A stretch of DNA of 22,750 nt from a virus: positions 1 through 22,750 of IMG/VR virus record IMGVR_UViG_3300006166_000013. One strand, 5' to 3'. The notes under the pieces are model-generated. The model was given only the letters and a program-made list of their open reading frames with translations, searched no databases and was not told where the DNA came from. Made by a program: the position numbers and the translations under genes. Positions 114-10,950 of the stretch are shown in pieces. How positions within the stretch are numbered: position 1 is the stretch's first letter; the number at the start of each line of letters is the position of its first letter.

Positions 114-1091
114 CTAATATAGCAGATCTTGAAGAGGATTCAACCCCTTGTGTGACACTTCTTCAACTGGTTTATATTCATTGACTCTCTTTTGAATTAG
201 GTTACCATAGTCTTCATGCAGTTCACATCCAATATAGTCTCTACCTAATGACTTGGCAACTGCTGCGGTCGTGCCTGATCCCATAAAAGGATCTAGTACA
301 ATATCCCCAACCTCACTACCTGCTTTTATACATGGTTCAATCAATTCAGGTGGATATACAGCAAAATGTGCGCCTTTATAAGGTTTTTTGTTCACAGTCC
401 ATACTGATCTTTTATTTCTTTTATCATATATCATCTTTCTTGGTCTTGTTAACCCACTGAACTGATTATTAGTGTCTTTAGTATTATTCATATTAATTGG
501 TTTATTTCCACCCCATCGTTCACCTACTGCCTTCTCCTTAATTGCTTCATTGTCATAATAATAATCTCTACTCTTAGCAAATAAAAAGATATACTCATGT
601 GCTTTCGTGCATCTATCTCTTACACTTTCAGGCATTGGATTAGGTTTATTCCATATAATATCTTGTCTTAACCACCATCCATCTGCTCTTAATGCAAATG
701 CTAACATCCAAGGAATACCCATCAATTCCTTATCTTTAAATCCTTTTAACTTATTTGCCCTCTTAGGTGTCTTCATAGGAAGATCTTGCCTACCCTTGGC
801 AAATGATTGCTTGGCATATTCTCCTGTACCTGACTTATAGTTGTAATAACTATCACCTATGTTTAACCATAGTGTTCCATCATCAGTGAGGATCTTTCTT
901 ACCTCCCTGAATACCTGAACCATTTGTTCAATATATTCCTCCGGCGATTGTTCTAAACCTATCTGCTTTTCTTCTCCACCATAATCTCTCAGACCATAGT
1001 AAGGTGGGGATGTAACACATACCCTAGCACTCTTTGGTAGAAAGGCACATAAAGTCTCTCTACAATCACCAAATAAAATAGTATCTCTCAT
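114..1091 (-). CDS. Beta-class DNA amino-methyltransferase (N4-cytosine or N6-adenine)
   Basis: This is probably a site-specific DNA methyltransferase that transfers methyl from S-adenosylmethionine to an exocyclic amino group. The 325-aa protein has the catalytic motif IV, TSPPYYGLRDYG, at about residues 27-38, and the AdoMet-binding motif I, DPFMGSGTTAAV, at about 267-278. The order IV then I is the beta-class arrangement of the N6/N4 methylase family. SPPY is more typical of N4-cytosine enzymes than NPPY or DPPY, but the base cannot be decided by eye. The WNKPNPMPESVRDRCTKAHE stretch (147-166) is also characteristic of the family. The length is normal for a complete enzyme. The ATG at 1091 overlaps the upstream helicase stop as ATGA, so translation is probably coupled. 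It may methylate phage DNA against host restriction or act in regulation. The family is secure and the specificity is unknown. Confidence 0.93.
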   Translation of the reverse strand: MRDTILFGDCRETLCAFLPKSARVCVTSPPYYGLRDYGGEEKQIGLEQSPEEYIEQMVQVFREVRKILTDDGTLWLNIGDSYYNYKSGTGEYAKQSFAKGRQDLPMKTPKRANKLKGFKDKELMGIPWMLAFALRADGWWLRQDIIWNKPNPMPESVRDRCTKAHEYIFLFAKSRDYYYDNEAIKEKAVGERWGGNKPINMNNTKDTNNQFSGLTRPRKMIYDKRNKRSVWTVNKKPYKGAHFAVYPPELIEPCIKAGSEVGDIVLDPFMGSGTTAAVAKSLGRDYIGCELHEDYGNLIQKRVNEYKPVEEVSHKGLNPLQDLLY

Positions 1092-2263
1092 CTTTTCACC
1101 ACACTAATAGCAGGTTGTCCCTCAGCAAATACTGTATTCACAACTGCCTGTACTTTTCTACTTGTAGTTATACCCACATTTGAATAGCAAGGTACGCAAA
1201 CTAAACCATAGGTCTTCTCAGCAGCACCCAGACGGATCACACGCCCTATTGTTTGTGAAATACCGATATAATCCATAGAACGCATAAACAACACTGCTTC
1301 TAACCCTTTTACGTTGATACCTTCTGATAAGATACTATGATGTAGAACAACAAATTTCTTCTCAGGATCTTTACCCCAAGTATTCAAAACATCAAAGAAT
1401 TCCTCTCTACCAACCTTCTTACCATCTATTATAGCACCTGTTTTAGATGTTATGTACATATAAGAATAACCCCTATATGCTAATTCGTCAAGGAACTTGG
1501 ATCTTGATATAAGAGTAACAATCTGTTTAGTAGACTTTGCACAAATAAGAACCTTATCCTTTCCATTCTTATCCATGCTATCAATAATCTTCTCAGATTC
1601 TACCTCTGGCGTGATCTCATATCTACCTAGTTTTGGAAACTTATTGATTACAACTTTTGGTGGTAATATATAACCTTGCTCTACTAACTCAGGTGCAGGT
1701 ACATTAACTATTACTTTTCCAAAGACTTCCTCATTCTCCATTCCAATACGTGATTTAGTCCCAGAATGCTTAGGAGTAGCAGTAAAGAAATAGCTGCGAA
1801 CAGTATCCAAACCTGCATAAAATTCCACAGTAGGTAGAAAATTTCTTGCAACACTATTGTGTGCCTCATCAAAATAGATCGTATCTACATTTATATTTGC
1901 TTCTTGTACTCTATGCAAAGAATGATAGGTAGTAAAGATAATCTTATGGCAATACTCACTACCAATCCACCAATCTCTAATGACATCCTTCTTGGTACTG
2001 GAAAAATGATGTGTTCTACCACTGTGAACATGCATCACATCAGCATCAGTAATATGCTCTAAAAACTCAGCAGATAATTGATGTGCTAATAAAATTCTAG
2101 GTGCTACAACAACAATGGTAGCAAATTCTTCTTTTTCATATAACCTTACAGCATCCATAATAGCAACAAGAGTCTTGCCGCCACCAGTGGGGATAATGAT
2201 TTGTCCTTTGGAATGATTAGCAATAGCATCCAAAGCACGTTGTTGATGTGGACGCAGTTGCAT
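1088..2263 (-). CDS. Superfamily 2 DEAH-box helicase
   Basis: This is a predicted ATP-dependent nucleic-acid helicase or translocase. From the ATG at 2263 (391 aa) the helicase parts run in order: a Q-like LRPHQQRAL at residues 3-11, Walker A PTGGGKT at 25-31, motif Ia VVAPRILLAHQ near 52-62, motif II DEAH at 132-135, motif III TATP at 161-164, and a second RecA lobe with motif VI SQTIGRVIRLG near the C-terminus. T4-like phages carry SF2 helicases such as UvsW, but this could equally be a restriction-type helicase, and no nuclease motif is visible. The frame is open to an ATG at 2305 and another ATG is at 2281. I prefer 2263 because GAGG lies 8 nt upstream and the extended -10 at 2288-2293 would place the RNA start near 2281. 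The 4-bp overlap with the downstream methylase suggests the two act together. Confidence 0.9.
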   Translation of the reverse strand: MQLRPHQQRALDAIANHSKGQIIIPTGGGKTLVAIMDAVRLYEKEEFATIVVVAPRILLAHQLSAEFLEHITDADVMHVHSGRTHHFSSTKKDVIRDWWIGSEYCHKIIFTTYHSLHRVQEANINVDTIYFDEAHNSVARNFLPTVEFYAGLDTVRSYFFTATPKHSGTKSRIGMENEEVFGKVIVNVPAPELVEQGYILPPKVVINKFPKLGRYEITPEVESEKIIDSMDKNGKDKVLICAKSTKQIVTLISRSKFLDELAYRGYSYMYITSKTGAIIDGKKVGREEFFDVLNTWGKDPEKKFVVLHHSILSEGINVKGLEAVLFMRSMDYIGISQTIGRVIRLGAAEKTYGLVCVPCYSNVGITTSRKVQAVVNTVFAEGQPAISVVKR

Positions 2264-2285
2264 TAAAGGAACCTCAAACATGTAC

Positions 2286-2296
2286 ATATTATAGCA
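2286..2296 (-). promoter_or_regulatory. Extended -10 promoter for helicase-methylase unit
   Basis: The minus strand reads TGCTATAAT, a consensus TATAAT (2288-2293) preceded by TGN, which is the extended -10 form that can work without a good -35. The hexamer 17 bp upstream is CCCCAT, not a -35 match, and falls inside the preceding terminator stem. The expected start is near 2281, just before the helicase. Confidence 0.55.
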
Positions 2297-2320
2297 GAAA
2301 AGCACCCCTAATGGGGTGCT
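2297..2320 (-). terminator. Rho-independent terminator after ParB-like gene
   Basis: There is a perfect 8-bp inverted repeat, AGCACCCC-ATTA-GGGGTGCT on the minus strand (2301-2320), with a 4-nt loop. The trailing T of the stem and the following TTTC give a short U-tract. It begins 9 nt after the stop of the ParB-like gene. Promoter elements of the next unit start immediately downstream. Confidence 0.75.
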
Positions 2321-2329
2321 CTGTGCCAG

Positions 2330-3370
2330 TTAGGTAAGTGGAAAAGGAACCAATACTTTATTTGGATCTTTATCCTCTACACTTTTAATCTGTGCTAATG
2401 AACCAACAATATTATATGGTTTTACTCCAGTAGTCAGGAATTTAGCAGCATAAGCAAGGCACAGTTTGTGGAAATGATCTGCTTCTGCTTTTGCTCGATT
2501 TCTCTGTTGTTTAACATCTTCAGGATCAAGGGCAGATGAGCAATAAAAGACATAATTTGTAGTCTTTTCATGATTAACATAATCCTGTAACAGCATCCTA
2601 AATGCTCTTAATGTATAGAGATCGTTACTTGCATTAACAACTCTTCCAAGATTACTATCACCATCAATACCACCACCTACGGTATACTTTGTTTTGTTGG
2701 TGATAATATCCTTTGCTTCATCAAGATCTAAAGATCTAATCTTGTTGATTGAAACTGTTGCCTTATAGATGTTAGTTGTAATAGTTTCCCTCACCTTATT
2801 ACTAAAGTTATTAGGAATACTCTTTACCCATTCTCTAATACCATCCATAGTCTTATCAACACTTCCACGATTTACCTTTTCAATACCTGCCGAAACGAAA
2901 TCTTTTGCAGCACATGATTTAGAAGGTGGATGGCAGTTAGCACCCAACTTCATATCTACATCAATATCATGCTCATTATATTTTTCAGGATTGAAACTTG
3001 ATGCAATATCATATTCATGAACATCAAAGATCCAAGTTTTCTGCTGTAACTGTTTAAGAGCCCAGATTCTATGAAATCCATCCTTTAACTCCCAACGATC
3101 CTCTTTCTTATTAAAGACGACTCTGGGTGGAATTTGATTATACCTAATTCCTTTTCGCAAATCTTCAAGAATTACTTCCTTATCTGCTTTTTGTGTACCT
3201 GCTGGACGAATTTGATTCTTTTCCCATTCAGGATCCCAATAAACATTGCAAATATCTAATGCAATAGTTTCTACGTAAGGAGCTCCATTAAAAGGTTCCC
3301 TTTGTAAGAATTTCTGCTCAGGATGATCCAACTTAGGGCATTCACATGCCTTGATTTTGATGTGTGACAT
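2330..3370 (-). CDS. ParB-like domain protein
   Basis: This is a 346-aa protein with a ParB/sulfiredoxin-type motif near its N-terminus. At about residues 70-120 an acidic/basic stretch leads into WELKDGFHRIWALKQL (93-108) and then WIFDVHEYD. The DGFHR signature matches the D-G-x-H-R core of ParB-like domains. The rest (about 121-346) is not recognised; it is mainly polar and probably helical. ParB-like proteins of phages include nucleases, CTP-dependent switches and DNA-modification factors, so the activity cannot be named. The frame is open to an ATG at 3460, but that would put coding sequence over a strong sigma-70 promoter and terminator, so the ATG at 3370 is the better start. No clear Shine-Dalgarno is seen. 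The gene appears to be a single-gene unit with its own promoter and terminator. A smaller ParB-like gene lies at 10612-10950. Confidence 0.8.
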   Translation of the reverse strand: MSHIKIKACECPKLDHPEQKFLQREPFNGAPYVETIALDICNVYWDPEWEKNQIRPAGTQKADKEVILEDLRKGIRYNQIPPRVVFNKKEDRWELKDGFHRIWALKQLQQKTWIFDVHEYDIASSFNPEKYNEHDIDVDMKLGANCHPPSKSCAAKDFVSAGIEKVNRGSVDKTMDGIREWVKSIPNNFSNKVRETITTNIYKATVSINKIRSLDLDEAKDIITNKTKYTVGGGIDGDSNLGRVVNASNDLYTLRAFRMLLQDYVNHEKTTNYVFYCSSALDPEDVKQQRNRAKAEADHFHKLCLAYAAKFLTTGVKPYNIVGSLAQIKSVEDKDPNKVLVPFPLT

Positions 3371-3431
3371 AATAAAGTCAAGTATAGAACACAGCAACTT
3401 ACAAACAAAACAGTCTCGTGCTGATATAAGG

Positions 3432-3460
3432 ACTATACACAAAAAAAGAGGGTGTGTCAA
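3432..3460 (-). promoter_or_regulatory. Sigma-70-type promoter for ParB-like gene
   Basis: On the minus strand a perfect -35 TTGACA (complement of 3455-3460) is separated by exactly 17 bp from TATAGT (complement of 3432-3437), one mismatch from the -10 consensus. The predicted start is near 3425, about 55 nt before the ATG at 3370. The -35 lies in the loop of the terminator of the upstream unit and the T-tract is the spacer. Confidence 0.75.
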
Positions 3461-3465
3461 CCCCC
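3441..3465 (-). terminator. Terminator after methylase/2OG-oxygenase unit
   Basis: The minus strand carries GGGGGT-TGACAC-ACCCTC, a 6-bp stem with one G-T pair and a 6-nt loop, followed directly by seven T. It lies about 58 nt after the stop of the 2OG-oxygenase gene. It overlaps a consensus promoter on the same strand. Confidence 0.7.
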
Positions 3466-3522
3466 TGTCCTTAAGAAAATATAAAGCTTCCCGTACAAAC
3501 CCTACAAAGGTAGTTATAAGAA

Positions 3523-4095
3523 TTAAGAATTGTACTTCAATCTCATCTTATTCATGAATTCACAATGCTTATCCATTTCATCTTTAAGATCCATAAAAAA
3601 CACAAGGGTTCTTCTAACATCCTGTAAAGTTTCACCAAAGTAACCTGTCGGTCCATGCTTTAAAGAACCAGAATACACAATTAAACGATTATACTTATTT
3701 TCTACATTAATTTGCTCACCATCTACAAATACAGTTGTTCCTGCCGTTACAGGTGCATCAGGAGTCAAATATATTAATCCTGCAAATGATGTATTGTCTT
3801 TATGCCATTTCCTAAGTTGAGATTTATTATCCTTCTCATAAGACATATGAAAATACATTTCCATTGAATGATCTTCCTTTAAATTAAAATATTCAGAAGA
3901 AGATTCCAATACTTCTTGATAGAATTTACTAATGATTGGATTATTAAGATATGATAACTCCCATGTTCTATATCCCCTCCATACAACTGATATAGGAGTA
4001 TTCAAATGGTACATGTAATCAGCAGAATGTGCTAATTCACTTAATTCGTCAACAGAATCAAAAAAATTATCTTTAATTAAAATACTGTTCGACAC
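3523..4095 (-). CDS. 2-oxoglutarate/Fe(II) oxygenase family protein
   Basis: This 190-aa protein has the iron-binding triad of the 2OG-Fe(II) dioxygenases: KWHKDN gives H98-x-D100, and the distal histidine is H147 in GSLKHGPTGYFG. Arginines at 161-162 (DVRRTLVFFM) are placed to bind the 2-oxoglutarate carboxylate. Predicted strands such as FAGLIYLTPDAP and TTVFVDGEQIN fit the jelly-roll core. Such enzymes hydroxylate proteins, small molecules or nucleobases, and many marine T4-like phages carry several. The substrate is unknown. The gene is last in a four-gene unit and overlaps the upstream half-methylase by 23 bp, so translation is coupled. That context makes a role linked to DNA modification conceivable, but this is inference. 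Confidence 0.82.
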   Translation of the reverse strand: MSNSILIKDNFFDSVDELSELAHSADYMYHLNTPISVVWRGYRTWELSYLNNPIISKFYQEVLESSSEYFNLKEDHSMEMYFHMSYEKDNKSQLRKWHKDNTSFAGLIYLTPDAPVTAGTTVFVDGEQINVENKYNRLIVYSGSLKHGPTGYFGETLQDVRRTLVFFMDLKDEMDKHCEFMNKMRLKYNS

Positions 4096-4477
4096 CTATT
4101 GGTTCCCCAAAAGAATAATCATATTCTAGTGCATCAGCACAAACATAATGATGATGATTAGAACGAACACCTAATCTTGTACATAACTCCTTGTGATTAT
4201 CAGGCATTATCTCGACTGCATATAACATATGATTTACAATATGATGTTCATCATGATATTCCATTAACTTATTTTTTAATCCAACTAGAAAATTACCACT
4301 TCCCGCAGATGGATCAATAAAGGTACTACTAGAATCTTTTAACACATCTTCTGGAATATCATTAACCATACTCTCAACTAACTCAGGTGGAGTAAAAACT
4401 TCCTGAGTTTCTTTTATTCTCTCATCAGATCTTTCAATATTAGATCCTGTATCTAGATTATGTTTATTCTTTTCCAT
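4073..4477 (-). CDS. AdoMet-binding half of a split DNA methyltransferase
   Basis: This 134-aa protein looks like only the N-terminal part of a gamma-type N6-adenine DNA methylase. It has motif X, QEVFTPPELVESMV (25-38), motif I, FIDPSAGSGNFLVGL (53-67), a motif II acidic residue in YAVEIMP (E89), and a motif III-like CADALEYD (113-120). It ends just where motif IV (NPPY) should follow. NPPY instead occurs at the start of the protein encoded immediately upstream (4464-5048), which overlaps this gene by 14 bp in another frame. The two polypeptides together contain one complete catalytic set, so a heterodimeric enzyme is likely. Its own 3' end overlaps the next gene by 23 bp. Homology to AdoMet methylases is clear; activity is inferred. 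Confidence 0.85.
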   Translation of the reverse strand: MEKNKHNLDTGSNIERSDERIKETQEVFTPPELVESMVNDIPEDVLKDSSSTFIDPSAGSGNFLVGLKNKLMEYHDEHHIVNHMLYAVEIMPDNHKELCTRLGVRSNHHHYVCADALEYDYSFGEPIGVEQYFN

Positions 4478-5048
4478 CTCTTTCCTCTAAACATCTATTA
4501 TAAGTGGTAATCAAATCATTCTTTCCAAAATGATATCGACCATTAGTTTGAGTTGCTGCCTCTCTAAATTCATCAGCAAACTCAACTAGATTCTCGATGA
4601 CCTCTGGTGATTTAACACTCAGGAAATGATGTCCCTTAGCATATTGTGTAAAATCTTTTCTCTTCACTCTACCACTAGGTCCACATCCATACTCACCAAC
4701 AAATACATCTGCCTCAAATCTTTCTTCATAAGATAGAAATTCAAAATCAGGATGTTCCGTGTACATAGGTATCTCACCCACACCTACGTCAAATCTCGAT
4801 GTGTTTTTTGCTACCCAATATTGTTTTACTGCACTAATACCACCAGGAAAAGTAGCATTATCTAGATCTTCATCTAGATTACAATGTAAATATGATTTAA
4901 TTTTATTCTGGGAAGAAGGTTTCCGTATAGAAGTAGGCAAGACGAATCGAATATCATCTGTAATCTCGGATGTCTTATTCAAGAATCGTATTGCAAGATT
5001 TCCTCCTACACCATATGGAGGATTTCCAATCGCTAATGTAAATCTCAT
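4464..5048 (-). CDS. Catalytic (NPPY) half of a split DNA methyltransferase
   Basis: This 194-aa protein starts almost directly with motif IV, LAIGNPPYGVGG (residues 5-16), the catalytic loop of N6-adenine methylases. It lacks any AdoMet-binding FxGxG motif. The following sequence (IRFVLPTSIRKPSS, ISAVKQYWVAKN) resembles the region after motif IV in Eco57I/TaqI-like enzymes, and the C-terminal half would be target recognition. The missing motifs X-I-II-III are encoded by the next gene downstream. The ATG at 5048 overlaps the thioredoxin stop as ATGA, and the 3' end overlaps the partner by 14 bp. The gene order (catalytic half first) is the reverse of the domain order in a single-chain gamma enzyme. 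A decayed enzyme is the alternative, but both frames are intact and tightly coupled. Confidence 0.82.
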   Translation of the reverse strand: MRFTLAIGNPPYGVGGNLAIRFLNKTSEITDDIRFVLPTSIRKPSSQNKIKSYLHCNLDEDLDNATFPGGISAVKQYWVAKNTSRFDVGVGEIPMYTEHPDFEFLSYEERFEADVFVGEYGCGPSGRVKRKDFTQYAKGHHFLSVKSPEVIENLVEFADEFREAATQTNGRYHFGKNDLITTYNRCLEERDGKE

Positions 5049-5380
5049 AATTTCTCAATGACTTGCTTATACTTACTACGTCCATGATACCCAAACCAAG
5101 TCTTTAACTCTTCTTTATCTCGAAACAACATAACAACAGGAATTCCATCAAATTTATATTTCTCGAACAAATCTCGTTCTTTTGTAACATCAATTTCAAC
5201 AACTGGAATTTCAGTTTCTTTCACAACACGTTTTAACTGTGGTTTCAATCTAAAACAACCTCCACAGTCATCCTTGGAGAAAAAAACTAAAAATGGATCA
5301 GCAGTATTGTAAAATTCATTAAAAGAATCCTCACCCATCTTCCATAAGGTGTCAGGAATTTCTATGCCCTTTCCAAACAT
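5045..5380 (-). CDS. Thioredoxin-like protein
   Basis: This is a 111-aa single-domain thioredoxin fold. It has strand LVFFSKDD followed by the redox site C39-G-G-C42 (the usual site is CGPC), strand IPVVEIDV (58-65), and the cis-proline segment DGIPVVMLF (78-86, Pro81). The length is typical of thioredoxin, and there is no signal peptide or membrane segment, so it should act in the cytoplasm as a disulfide reductase. Phage thioredoxins commonly serve ribonucleotide reductase or polymerase processivity. Here it leads an operon with a split methylase and an Fe(II) oxygenase, both of which could need reducing conditions. It is first after a good sigma-70-type promoter and overlaps the next gene by 4 bp. 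No strong Shine-Dalgarno is seen before the ATG at 5380. Confidence 0.9.
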   Translation of the reverse strand: MFGKGIEIPDTLWKMGEDSFNEFYNTADPFLVFFSKDDCGGCFRLKPQLKRVVKETEIPVVEIDVTKERDLFEKYKFDGIPVVMLFRDKEELKTWFGYHGRSKYKQVIEKL

Positions 5381-5403
5381 ACCAATTCTATAAAATAAAC
5401 TCT

Positions 5404-5432
5404 ATTATATCACAAGATATCTCTGAATGCAA
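5404..5432 (-). promoter_or_regulatory. Sigma-70-type promoter for thioredoxin/methylase unit
   Basis: The minus strand shows TTGCAT (complement of 5427-5432), a 17-bp spacer and TATAAT (complement of 5404-5409), with TGA just before the -10 giving the extended form. The expected start is near 5397, about 17 nt before the thioredoxin ATG. It lies in the 54-bp gap between the adhesin stop and thioredoxin. A small CTATC-AAA-GATAG hairpin at the adhesin stop lacks a T-tract, so late read-through is possible. Confidence 0.72.
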
Positions 5433-5434
5433 TC

Positions 5435-7813
5435 CTATCTTTGATAGATTATATCACCACCGCAAGTAGCATATGTTTTTTCTGATGATCCACTTTGACC
5501 ACTTCTAGTCCATCTAACATTCCAGAGTTCAATATAATTAAAAGCAACACCAGCAGTACCAGGATTATCATTCCATCCTGCTTTAAGTGTTATATTTCCA
5601 CCACCTTTAATCCTAAGCTTACGTCCACCATCAACAAATTTTGCTTCTGTAATACTACTATCCTTAGAAATAATTTCGAATGATGCATTAGCATCTTGTC
5701 CATCACCATCCCAAAGTTCTATTCTCTGATCATTAGTTCCATTTTGTAACCATGTAGTCCTACCATCATTATCACTATGTAAACCATCAATATGAATTGG
5801 CCAATCAGTATGTCCATCAACTGAGAAAGTACCAGCAGAAACCTGAATGATTAAATCAATCCAAGATCTCGCATCAGAATGCTCAGTATTACTACTACCA
5901 TCTTCTATTCTAACCTTTTGATTACCATCTAATTTAAAGACAGGAGATTGTGCCTGACCATTTGGTTCTGATAGATTCGTAACGCCATTACTCCCATCAT
6001 ACCAATTAGTGCTCTGACTACCAGATGCATGAGTTAATCTATATTTTGCACCAGTTGAGGCAGTTACTGATACTGTATTACTACTCTGATCATTATTTTC
6101 TGTAACAACTATCTGTGATTGTCCTGTACCTTCATACTTATTAAATGTTGCACGATTTTGCCAAGAGGCAGCTCTTGTCATAGTCCAAGTAGCTGCATTT
6201 CCACCAACTGTTACCTGGTTACTACCAGTTCCTCCTGCATTTTGTGCAAAAACTTTATATGTTGTTGTAATTGATGGATTTGCTACGAAAGTTCCACTAT
6301 TACTAGTAGGGTTCCAACCAGAATCACTTGGTGTAGATTGTCCAAAAACATTTGTTATTGTCCAAGGACTTGATGCAGACCAACTTATATTATAAGGTCC
6401 ACTACCACTCGAACTAACAGATACAGATGGTGCGGTAGGATTATTAGTTACAACCGTTGTGCCCGGACATCCACCACTGTAACTACCTTTTACAGTATTG
6501 TTATTAATAGTACCAGATAAAGTAAACGGACTCCCACAAACAGCACTACCACCATCTCCACCAGTTGAAGGTTGCGGAGCGTGCATTGCATTATTTGCTG
6601 AGGTATCTTGCCCATCTTGACCCCAATCTCCACCATCACCACCTCTTCTTCCAGCATCGGTGCATGTTCCATCACTATTATAAGTATACCCACCTACTGA
6701 ACAAGTTGGGCACTTTGGACTTGGATCTGTTCCATTTTGCCCACTAGTTTGGGACATATTATATCCCTTTCCATTTCCTCCTCTACCACCTATACCTTGT
6801 GTAGGTCTAGTAGAGTTTATCGTTTCTTTACAATTATTTCCTTGTGTGTTAGCAACACAATATTCATTACAAAAAGAACTAAATGGCCACCTTGTCCAAC
6901 AATATTCACCCCAAGAACAACAACCACCACTCCAAGATCCTGTCGTTTCGACTGTTCCACCATTAGAAGGGCTACATGCAGGGGCAGATCCACAACCACT
7001 AGTAGTCCAAGTTCTAGAACATGTTCCTTGTTGAGGAATAGCACCATTCATTCCTTGCTCACCACCGCCACCACCACCATATATTCTGGCACTACCAGAT
7101 TTAATGGTGACCCATGTATCATTACCACTATGATTAATACTTAATGCTGTTCCACCAGGAGTACCAGGGTCAGCACCATTTTGTGTACCACTACTATGAT
7201 CATATCCTCTACTATCATATCCACCTTCTCCACCAGCACCTAATATACTTCCATACACCCAAATTCTAACATTACGTGCAGGGACAGTAGGATTTAATTG
7301 TGCAGCAGGTGCACCAGGATTCCATGAACCAGCACCAGGATCATTATTTTCTCCACCCCATGATCCACTATCATTTGCACCACAAGTTCCTTCTATCTTA
7401 ATATATTTTTGTATATTCTTAGTTAAATTACCATTACCAGAACTTGTACTATCTCGACCACCTGATCCATATCCACCCCAATCAATTCCTTCAGAACCAT
7501 TATATCGTCCCATTTTAAAATTGACATCAGTTCCAGTCTGTCTTGCCCAAAATCTCTTATAAGAATCCCTCATTTGGGATGCTTTCCAATTAGAATCACC
7601 AGTACCAGATGAAAAATTCCATCCAGCAATATCTTCATTAGCAACACAATCAGGTACTATTGGATCTCGTGCATTGCCATCAGTATTTCTTTTCAGACTA
7701 AGAGCATTAATCGTACCACTATTAACTTCTTTAAAAGTGTTACGTAGCTGACTCCACTTAATTTCACCACTAGTGAAATATGGACCTTCTCTATCGTATA
7801 CCGAAACGCCCAT
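5435..7813 (-). CDS. Glycine- and cysteine-rich tail adhesin / fibre protein
   Basis: This 792-aa probable receptor-binding or virion surface protein is built in parts. The N-terminus, with GEIKWSQLRNTFKEV at 16-30, resembles the short anchor found on many marine phage structural proteins. Residues about 105-450 are glycine-rich, with IWVYGSILGAGGEGGY (184-199), a six-Gly run at 246-251, and RRGGDGGDWGQDGQD (389-403). This same zone is unusually cysteine-rich: of 17 cysteines, 12 fall at residues 265-384, including a CC pair at 298-299. Residues about 460-540 look like an Ig or fibronectin-type beta domain (ISWSASSPWTITNVF, TTTYKVFAQN). The remainder, to YATCGGDIIYQR, is unrecognised and beta-rich. 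Glycine-rich adhesins at fibre tips determine host range in other T-even-like phages, so that role is inferred from composition and position at the end of the fibre cluster. Confidence 0.8.
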   Translation of the reverse strand: MGVSVYDREGPYFTSGEIKWSQLRNTFKEVNSGTINALSLKRNTDGNARDPIVPDCVANEDIAGWNFSSGTGDSNWKASQMRDSYKRFWARQTGTDVNFKMGRYNGSEGIDWGGYGSGGRDSTSSGNGNLTKNIQKYIKIEGTCGANDSGSWGGENNDPGAGSWNPGAPAAQLNPTVPARNVRIWVYGSILGAGGEGGYDSRGYDHSSGTQNGADPGTPGGTALSINHSGNDTWVTIKSGSARIYGGGGGGEQGMNGAIPQQGTCSRTWTTSGCGSAPACSPSNGGTVETTGSWSGGCCSWGEYCWTRWPFSSFCNEYCVANTQGNNCKETINSTRPTQGIGGRGGNGKGYNMSQTSGQNGTDPSPKCPTCSVGGYTYNSDGTCTDAGRRGGDGGDWGQDGQDTSANNAMHAPQPSTGGDGGSAVCGSPFTLSGTINNNTVKGSYSGGCPGTTVVTNNPTAPSVSVSSSGSGPYNISWSASSPWTITNVFGQSTPSDSGWNPTSNSGTFVANPSITTTYKVFAQNAGGTGSNQVTVGGNAATWTMTRAASWQNRATFNKYEGTGQSQIVVTENNDQSSNTVSVTASTGAKYRLTHASGSQSTNWYDGSNGVTNLSEPNGQAQSPVFKLDGNQKVRIEDGSSNTEHSDARSWIDLIIQVSAGTFSVDGHTDWPIHIDGLHSDNDGRTTWLQNGTNDQRIELWDGDGQDANASFEIISKDSSITEAKFVDGGRKLRIKGGGNITLKAGWNDNPGTAGVAFNYIELWNVRWTRSGQSGSSEKTYATCGGDIIYQR
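7061..7080. repeat. In-frame triplet run coding poly-glycine
   Basis: The plus strand is an almost pure ACC triplet run (one interruption by GCC), which on the coding strand gives six consecutive glycines at residues 246-251 of the adhesin. Slippage here would change the glycine number without breaking the frame. Confidence 0.6.
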
Positions 7814-10611: not shown

Positions 10612-10950
10612 TTAATTCATATAAGCAGTTAAAACTTGCTTTGATGTTAAAATATAACAAGGAATCTTAGTAAGACTCATATCTATAATTTTCTTTAACC
10701 TATGCCTACCATCAATTAATTGATAGTGGTCATCTTCCTTAATAACAATACACGGTAAAGTAATATCTGCCATTTTATATCTTGGATGCCAATCCTCAAT
10801 GGCACTCATAGGTTTTGCTCTTATATCTGATATATCAATATATACAGCATCAATTTTATAAGATTTTACATATCTGTATAATAATTGACAATCAATAAAA
10901 CCACTAGTAAGACTATCGATAGGAAAATCCTTAGTTATGTGATGTCGCAT
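10612..10950 (-). CDS. Small ParB-like domain protein
   Basis: This 112-aa protein has a clear ParB-type core: LPCIVIKEDDHYQLIDGRHR (65-84), with the D-G-R-H-R signature at 80-84, and then a strand KIPCYILT. An N-terminal segment (SLTSGFIDCQLLYRYVKS) precedes it. Little is left outside the ParB fold, so it lacks the helix-turn-helix and CTP-clamp parts of a chromosomal ParB. Its function is unknown; nuclease, nucleotide-binding or protein-interaction roles are possible. It overlaps the upstream 2OG-oxygenase-like gene by 16 bp, so the two are co-translated. A larger ParB-like protein (2330-3370) also neighbours a 2OG oxygenase. Confidence 0.8.
   Translation of the reverse strand: MRHHITKDFPIDSLTSGFIDCQLLYRYVKSYKIDAVYIDISDIRAKPMSAIEDWHPRYKMADITLPCIVIKEDDHYQLIDGRHRLKKIIDMSLTKIPCYILTSKQVLTAYMN

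Follow-up and report, generated by a model that had tools for sequence, protein, structure and literature searches.

A marine cyanobacterial virus appears to encode one amino-methylase in two small, overlapping genes, whose products would assemble in trans, a reading to which we give a probability of about three in four. The window, which is the whole stretch of DNA that was analysed (22,750 nucleotides), carries both genes on its minus strand. The upstream gene, at 4464..5048, encodes a protein of 194 amino acids containing the catalytic NPPY motif, and the downstream gene, at 4073..4477, encodes a protein of 134 amino acids containing the AdoMet-binding motifs X, I, II and III. The evidence supports the two as complementary parts of one NPPY methylase that is split between motifs III and IV.

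The NPPY protein starts with MRFTLAIGNPPYG, which places NPPY at residues 9-12, immediately after the catalytic strand. The gene provides strand 4, NPPY, the remaining catalytic lobe and a target-recognition region, and its sequence contains no AdoMet motifs and nothing N-terminal to the catalytic strand. It matches PHROG 5172 (E 5e-65) from profile position 92 onward but no Pfam or NCBIfam family. The AdoMet protein has EVFTP as motif X (26-30), FIDPSAGSGNF as motif I (53-63), LYAVE as motif II (85-89) and CADALEYDY as motif III (VCADALEYDY with the preceding V), and its gene stops about 20 residues past motif III, ahead of any motif IV. Residues 20-95 match Pfam N6_Mtase (E 3.3e-6, above the family cut-off) and the gene matches PHROG 4376 (E 1.4e-67), a family of stand-alone lobes that, in an alignment of 19 phage rows, likewise have motifs X to III and end before IV. 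The AdoMet gene also weakly matches the start (19-72) of the PHROG 5172 profile (length 377), which therefore covers both genes and implies that the two stretches are found in one chain elsewhere. Pfam N6_N4_Mtase matches neither half, a sequence search against solved structures returns no homologue and PADLOC matches are confined to generic Type II methylases. The reading frames and motifs set out in the preliminary description are thus confirmed for both genes, with family matches well past what chance would give.

The start of the AdoMet gene lies within the end of the NPPY gene, in a 14-bp overlap, ATGGAAAAGAATAA, at 4464..4477 on the minus strand, with the AdoMet gene in the +1 frame. Among the 128 related loci the overlap is 14 nt long in 69, 20 in 33, 17 in 10 and 44 in seven, with other lengths in the rest, and 123 of them have the AdoMet gene in the +1 frame; in S-CAM7 it is in the other frame, with a 4-nt ATGA overlap. 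It had been proposed that a frameshift across the overlap could join the two halves into a fused, permuted chain. The NPPY stop, however, is found 11-44 nt past the AdoMet start in close relatives, none of which has a fused form of the pair, and a wandering stop together with a changeable frame fits coupled translation but not a fixed frameshift site. Fused chains in the permuted order are encoded by Aeromonas phages (Aeh1p090, CC2_106), but not by the window. At the other end of the AdoMet-lobe frame, a C-terminal extension of about 28 residues is seen in a subset of the loci (L099-L103, L125, L130-L132, L135-L136, L138 and L142).

The arrangement is widespread. The same pair is found in the Prochlorococcus phage P-SSM2 and the cultured P-SSM5, S-CAM7 and S-SKS1, with the P-SSM2 orthologues (PSSM2_036/037) being 82% (NPPY) and 73% (AdoMet) identical to the window proteins. 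Together, IMG/VR and the window have 117 loci with adjacent full-length pairs, which come down to 82 distinct sequences; in every one the AdoMet gene follows the NPPY gene. Both genes are under purifying selection, with a median pairwise dN/dS of 0.11 (NPPY gene) and 0.10 (AdoMet gene). In the alignments the N, P, P, Y and a G are kept in 37/37 NPPY rows, and EVFTP, the D, A, G, G, N and F of motif I and the E of motif II are kept in 49/49 lobe rows. With more than 100 loci, cultured phages and dN/dS close to 0.1, the arrangement is not an artefact such as a sequencing rearrangement.

An AlphaFold2 model of the NPPY half (30 sequences, pLDDT 84.5, pTM 0.66) aligns with M.TaqI (2ih5, residues 97-410) over 181 of its 194 residues with an rmsd of 3.9 and a Z score of 7.6, a middling value below 8. 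The catalytic motif is in register, with model residues 9-12 corresponding to M.TaqI 105-108. The model aligns similarly to CamA and M.BseCI, and gamma-class methylases make up most of the best 25 structure matches. The intact sequence kin of the NPPY half are single-chain phage enzymes, namely XbC2 (E 3e-14), KIL3 and the rV5-like naam_195, each of which has its own EPSAGxG lobe in cis; none of these cis lobes gives a BLAST match to the window AdoMet protein. In the rV5-like phage, naam_194 (L010:2536-2994) is annotated as an N6-adenine methyltransferase although methylase motifs are missing from it and the AdoMet-lobe profile finds no match in the genome; it is probably misannotated by neighbourhood.

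The presence of the lobe gene follows the state of the NPPY chain. A tblastn search with the NPPY half matches 205 phage records, many of them near copies, so that the effective number is small. All 11 cyanophage records without an intact cis lobe on the NPPY gene are also matched by the AdoMet half, and none of the Escherichia, Campylobacter and Pseudomonas records (sampled members with an intact cis lobe) is matched by the AdoMet-half search. Lobe profile searches of whole genomes found a lobe protein in 0/3 intact-lobe phages, and two lobe proteins alongside two NPPY chains in S-CAM7. Upstream of NPPY, a different lobe, short and degenerate, is retained in two chains (loci L147 and L148) with approximately 75% identity to the window NPPY half. 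The NPPY chains of the window and P-SSM2 have no lobe of their own; any lobe is also missing from the NPPY chain in Curtobacterium and in the Aeromonas fusions. Because L147 and L148 keep such a lobe and the window and P-SSM2 do not, the sequence comparison indicates that a degenerate lobe was probably once part of the NPPY chain and has been lost, the chain now relying on a separate lobe protein. Locus L147 has in addition two different NPPY chains in tandem (4821-5825 and 5785-6570) followed by a single AdoMet lobe, a layout in which both catalytic subunits would seem to share one lobe.

Judged by its sequence relatives, the AdoMet protein belongs to a family of free-standing lobes whose NPPY partners are unrelated. 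It is found with C6_53, Bellamy gp86, MA01 (a helicase fusion), S-CAM7_055 and the NPPY chains of Lak megaphages, and most of these partners have a short or degenerate lobe of their own without the GxG of motif I, examples of the sequence in its place being GDPSGIHTLR, DAGCVIAITL and DTFLTLTLTL. The C24 and C6 isolates of ACG-2014f have lobes that are 99% identical but NPPY chains that share just 27% identity over only 166 residues. The donor-holding part thus appears to be a swappable module common to many phages and some bacterial restriction systems. Two isolates of one species that share a 99%-identical lobe (L005/L006) have wholly different cassettes downstream of it, either a helicase and an NPPY chain or a nuclease-like gene, an NPPY chain and a helicase, resembling the exchange of specificity cassettes. 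In C24_53 (L005:7557-8570), residues 89-186 of the window NPPY half find two matches, one inside 61-236 and a second at 241-335 (40% identity), which suggests a tandem repeat of the recognition region. A tree of the lobes (27 rows) is shallow and long-branched and leaves the stand-alone lobes unresolved as one clade; its depth is too small to settle origins, and no claim on origin made here rests on it.

These pairings bear on the explanation given in the preliminary description, that one gamma-class enzyme had been cut between motifs III and IV and its pieces exchanged in order, possibly to be rejoined by frameshifting. The split does fall exactly at III/IV, and the halves are adjacent and overlapping with a conserved order of IV...X-I-II-III. 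The BLAST kin of the lobe are nevertheless other stand-alone lobes rather than the lobes that single-chain relatives of the NPPY half have in cis, the NPPY chains of L147, L148 and C24 keep a different short lobe, and one lobe family has unrelated NPPY chains as partners. The gene order, which had been taken as the key feature, is reversed in ACG-2014f and in bacterial loci, where the AdoMet gene comes first, and the stop position and frame vary. We consider a cut and swap unlikely, and a weaker account than the loss of a degenerate lobe with reliance on a separate protein.

Further forms of the same parts occur in other phages. Split NPPY-then-AdoMet pairs are found in T4-like Klebsiella, Shigella and Vibrio phages and in Lak megaphages; the T4-like forms have the NPPY gene first, with overlaps of 17 bp in PSD9, 14 in KLB8 and 4 in PVA23, and the NPPY chain carries a GIY-YIG domain in KLB8 and PVA23. 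A scan of IMG/VR for the Klebsiella-type lobes found nothing. In Klebsiella phage KpV477 (L157:1020-2505) the NPPY gene is present as two frames (kpv477_030 and 029), as opposed to one in KLB8, and has the appearance of a frameshift. The single permuted chain is found in 27 Aeromonas phage records (Aeh1p090, 415 aa; CC2_106, 383 aa; phage 65 p65301; PHROG 11371). The N-terminal half of Aeh1p090 has a match in S-CAM7_055, a separate NPPY chain (E 6e-18), and the C-terminal half matches the separate lobes PVA23_330 of Vibrio (E 3e-27), PSD9_102 of Shigella (E 3e-25) and KLB8_050 of Klebsiella (E 1e-24) as well as the window lobe (E 2e-11). Circularly permuted M.EcoKI-like methylases in jumbo phages have been mentioned in the literature (PMC7824862). 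An accession cited there as an example of permuted or related methylases, APU01582.1, differs from that of the Aeromonas 65.2 protein (APU01675.1); in that genome a methylase-like frame near the expected place of APU01582.1, and a candidate for it, has the normal motif order.

The fused CC2 chain, a relative and not the window pair itself, was modelled from a thin alignment of 20 sequences (pLDDT 69, pTM 0.64). Its lobe (residues 281-383) matches the gamma-class CamA (Z 11.9, rmsd 1.9) and its NPPY part (1-117) matches M.TaqI (Z 8.4). Taken whole and in sequence order, the model matches the beta-class MboIIA (1g60; Z 10.6, 147 residues) and other beta-class enzymes, with Z scores of 10.3 for M.BceJIV, 9.3 for RsrI and 9.0 for EcoP15I Mod. 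In the model, gamma-type parts are thus predicted to form one sheet in beta order.

Related lobes are also found in bacteria: of the 80 best genome loci, 77 have the lobe ahead of an NPPY chain, and in 69 of these a helicase follows. This is the layout of pDrdVI, with M1 (212 aa), M2 (539 aa) and a helicase, provided that its genes are correctly assigned to M1 and M2 by their order and size. M1.DrdVI is 32% identical to the window lobe over 97 residues (E 2e-8), and the window NPPY half gives no BLAST match to M2.DrdVI at E 0.01. M2.DrdVI keeps a lobe of its own, in which DPCTKSG stands in the position of motif I. An unannotated lobe-type frame adjoins an IS1216 element on the Enterococcus faecium plasmid pC20-2A-optrA (L173:2450-2941) and is probably what is left of a DrdVI-like system carried by a resistance plasmid; matches are found in 18 Enterococcus plasmid records.

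As the NPPY chain keeps a degenerate lobe of its own in several relatives and in M2 of DrdVI, a lobe acting in trans cannot simply fill an empty place there. This observation, with the tendency of the lobe protein to travel with helicases, would suit another explanation, in which the lobe is a separate AdoMet-dependent or AdoMet-sensing regulatory subunit of the helicase cluster rather than the AdoMet site of the NPPY chain; DrdVI-type and several cyanophage systems have NPPY chains that keep their own lobe. Yet the NPPY chains of the window, P-SSM2, Curtobacterium and the Aeromonas fusions are lobeless and would then lack any AdoMet site, the fused chain models as one beta-order sheet and the own lobes in the other systems have a degenerate motif I. 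A regulatory role in place of a catalytic one is accordingly improbable.

In the neighbourhood of the pair in the window, a ResIII/DEAD helicase (405 aa) is found at 1088..2305 on the minus strand, and a homologue is present in 111/128 related loci, always downstream of the pair. Between the AdoMet half and the helicase is a gene at 2330..3460 (minus strand) with a DGFHR motif, whose weak family match points to a putative ParB-like role, and a [DN]GxHR gene stands between pair and helicase in 55 of the 112 helicase-bearing loci, the window included. A second small ParB-like frame (LIDGRHRLKKI) is located at 10612-10950, in the tail-fibre region. The thioredoxin/2OG-oxygenase operon in which the pair had been placed holds only in part. 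The thioredoxin gene at 5045..5380 (minus strand) is a real neighbour, overlapping the start of the NPPY gene by 4 bp, but has no homologue in any of the 128 related loci; the putative 2OG-oxygenase-like gene at 3523..4095 (minus strand), a weak assignment (DUF6445, E 8e-4), overlaps the end of the AdoMet gene and has a relative in just three of the 128. A terminator-like stem, AGGGGGTTGACACACCCTCT, followed by a T run lies at 3432-3466 on the minus strand between the 2OG-like and ParB-like genes, and is overlapped by a promoter-like site with 11/12 matches.

A second, intact methylase is encoded at 114..1091 on the minus strand. It is of beta order, with SPPY first and the AdoMet motif C-terminal, matches Pfam N6_N4_Mtase (1e-56) and was rejected as a partner for either half, as it has its own motifs; its P-SSM2 orthologue AAX44419.1 has been called a cytosine-N4 methylase (PMC7824862).

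Since the pair is linked with a helicase here, in the bacterial form and in other cyanophages, analogy suggests that pair and helicase may constitute a DNA-marking or restriction-like cluster. No nuclease gene is recognised beside the helicase in the window cluster, and this leads to the modest guess that the cluster would protect phage DNA. That missing nuclease, and the short frames annotated as hypothetical in both P-SSM2 and S-CAM7, could be taken as signs of the decayed remnants of a methylase or restriction system devoid of enzymatic function, but both genes have a dN/dS of about 0.1, the catalytic residues do not vary and the pair is conserved in cultured phages and more than 100 environmental contigs, which makes this highly improbable.

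The preferred reading is therefore of one methylase from two subunits. A single mRNA would give both proteins, translated by means of the overlapping start and stop. The 134-residue protein would be the AdoMet-binding lobe, with strands 1-3 and motifs X, I, II and III, and the 194-residue protein, an NPPY chain that would have lost its own lobe, would supply strand 4 with NPPY, the remaining sheet and the target-recognition region. The subunits would join in trans, the lobe taking the place of strands 1-3 of a normal methylase, as an exchangeable stand-alone subunit whose family also pairs with other NPPY chains. The base methylated is likely to be adenine, at N6, to judge from NPPY and from DrdVI and MaeIV. 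The physical assembly of the subunits, the m6A activity and a role with the helicase in marking phage DNA are all inferred. More tentative, and somewhat short of an even chance, is a joint reading in which the NPPY/recognition subunit is swapped around the exchangeable lobe in the manner of Type I specificity, and phages display a series from fission to fusion, running from single-chain gamma enzyme to split pair to fused permuted chain, with the gamma-type parts taking beta order.

The permuted motif orders of amino-methylases are an old question, for which one proposed route is gene fission followed by fusion in the other order. Phages show what appear to be intermediate states of permutation next to one another; of these, the window pair is the cleanest because its NPPY subunit has no lobe of its own. 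If the AdoMet subunit is indeed separate and swappable, surveys of motif order in single genes will miss such methylases. Being small (194 + 134 aa) and already split, the pair is a natural starting point for complementation studies.

Several known systems invite comparison. M.AquI and M.EcoHK31I also form one methylase from two polypeptides, but they make 5-methylcytosine and are divided near the variable region or motif IX (PMC3404938), unlike the window pair, where the cut lies between the AdoMet lobe and the catalytic motif. The gamma-class enzymes M.TaqI, CamA, XbC2_125 and naam_195 have the catalytic motif of the window NPPY half, whose modelled fold resembles M.TaqI at a middling Z score, and XbC2 is homologous to it (E 3e-14), but they have X-I-II-III-IV in one chain with no partner gene, whereas the window has two genes that read IV... 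and then X-I-II-III. The beta-class enzymes M.RsrI, MboIIA and EcoP15I Mod have the order of the window pair, namely catalytic motif, recognition region and AdoMet motifs, but belong to another sequence family and consist of a single chain, a property seen in the Aeromonas phage relatives and not in the two chains of the window pair. The Aeromonas fused chains share the order NPPY, recognition region, X-I-II-III and a homologous lobe (E 2e-11), and differ in being one chain rather than two genes and in having an NPPY part from another PHROG family.

The known relatives are DrdVI and MaeIV, Type IIG-like restriction-modification systems that, like the window, have a small separate AdoMet-lobe protein, an NPPY chain and a helicase gene nearby. 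Cloned M1-2.DrdVI gives m6A at GCAGCC when expressed in E. coli (PMC6430315), and M1-M2.MaeIV, described as a split methylase like DrdVI, gives m6A at GCACY in the same host (PMC10113651). In DrdVI, M1 precedes M2, M2 has its own lobe and the helicase carries a GIY-YIG nuclease, the DrdVI protein having been called a fused translocase and nuclease (PMC4996451). In the window, by contrast, the NPPY gene comes first and has no lobe, and the helicase is short and lies about 2 kb downstream with other genes between. A literature search found no description of a split methylase in phages or of a reduced phage form in opposite gene order. The kind of enzyme is thus already known through DrdVI and MaeIV, and the phage pair represents a reduced form of it in the opposite gene order.
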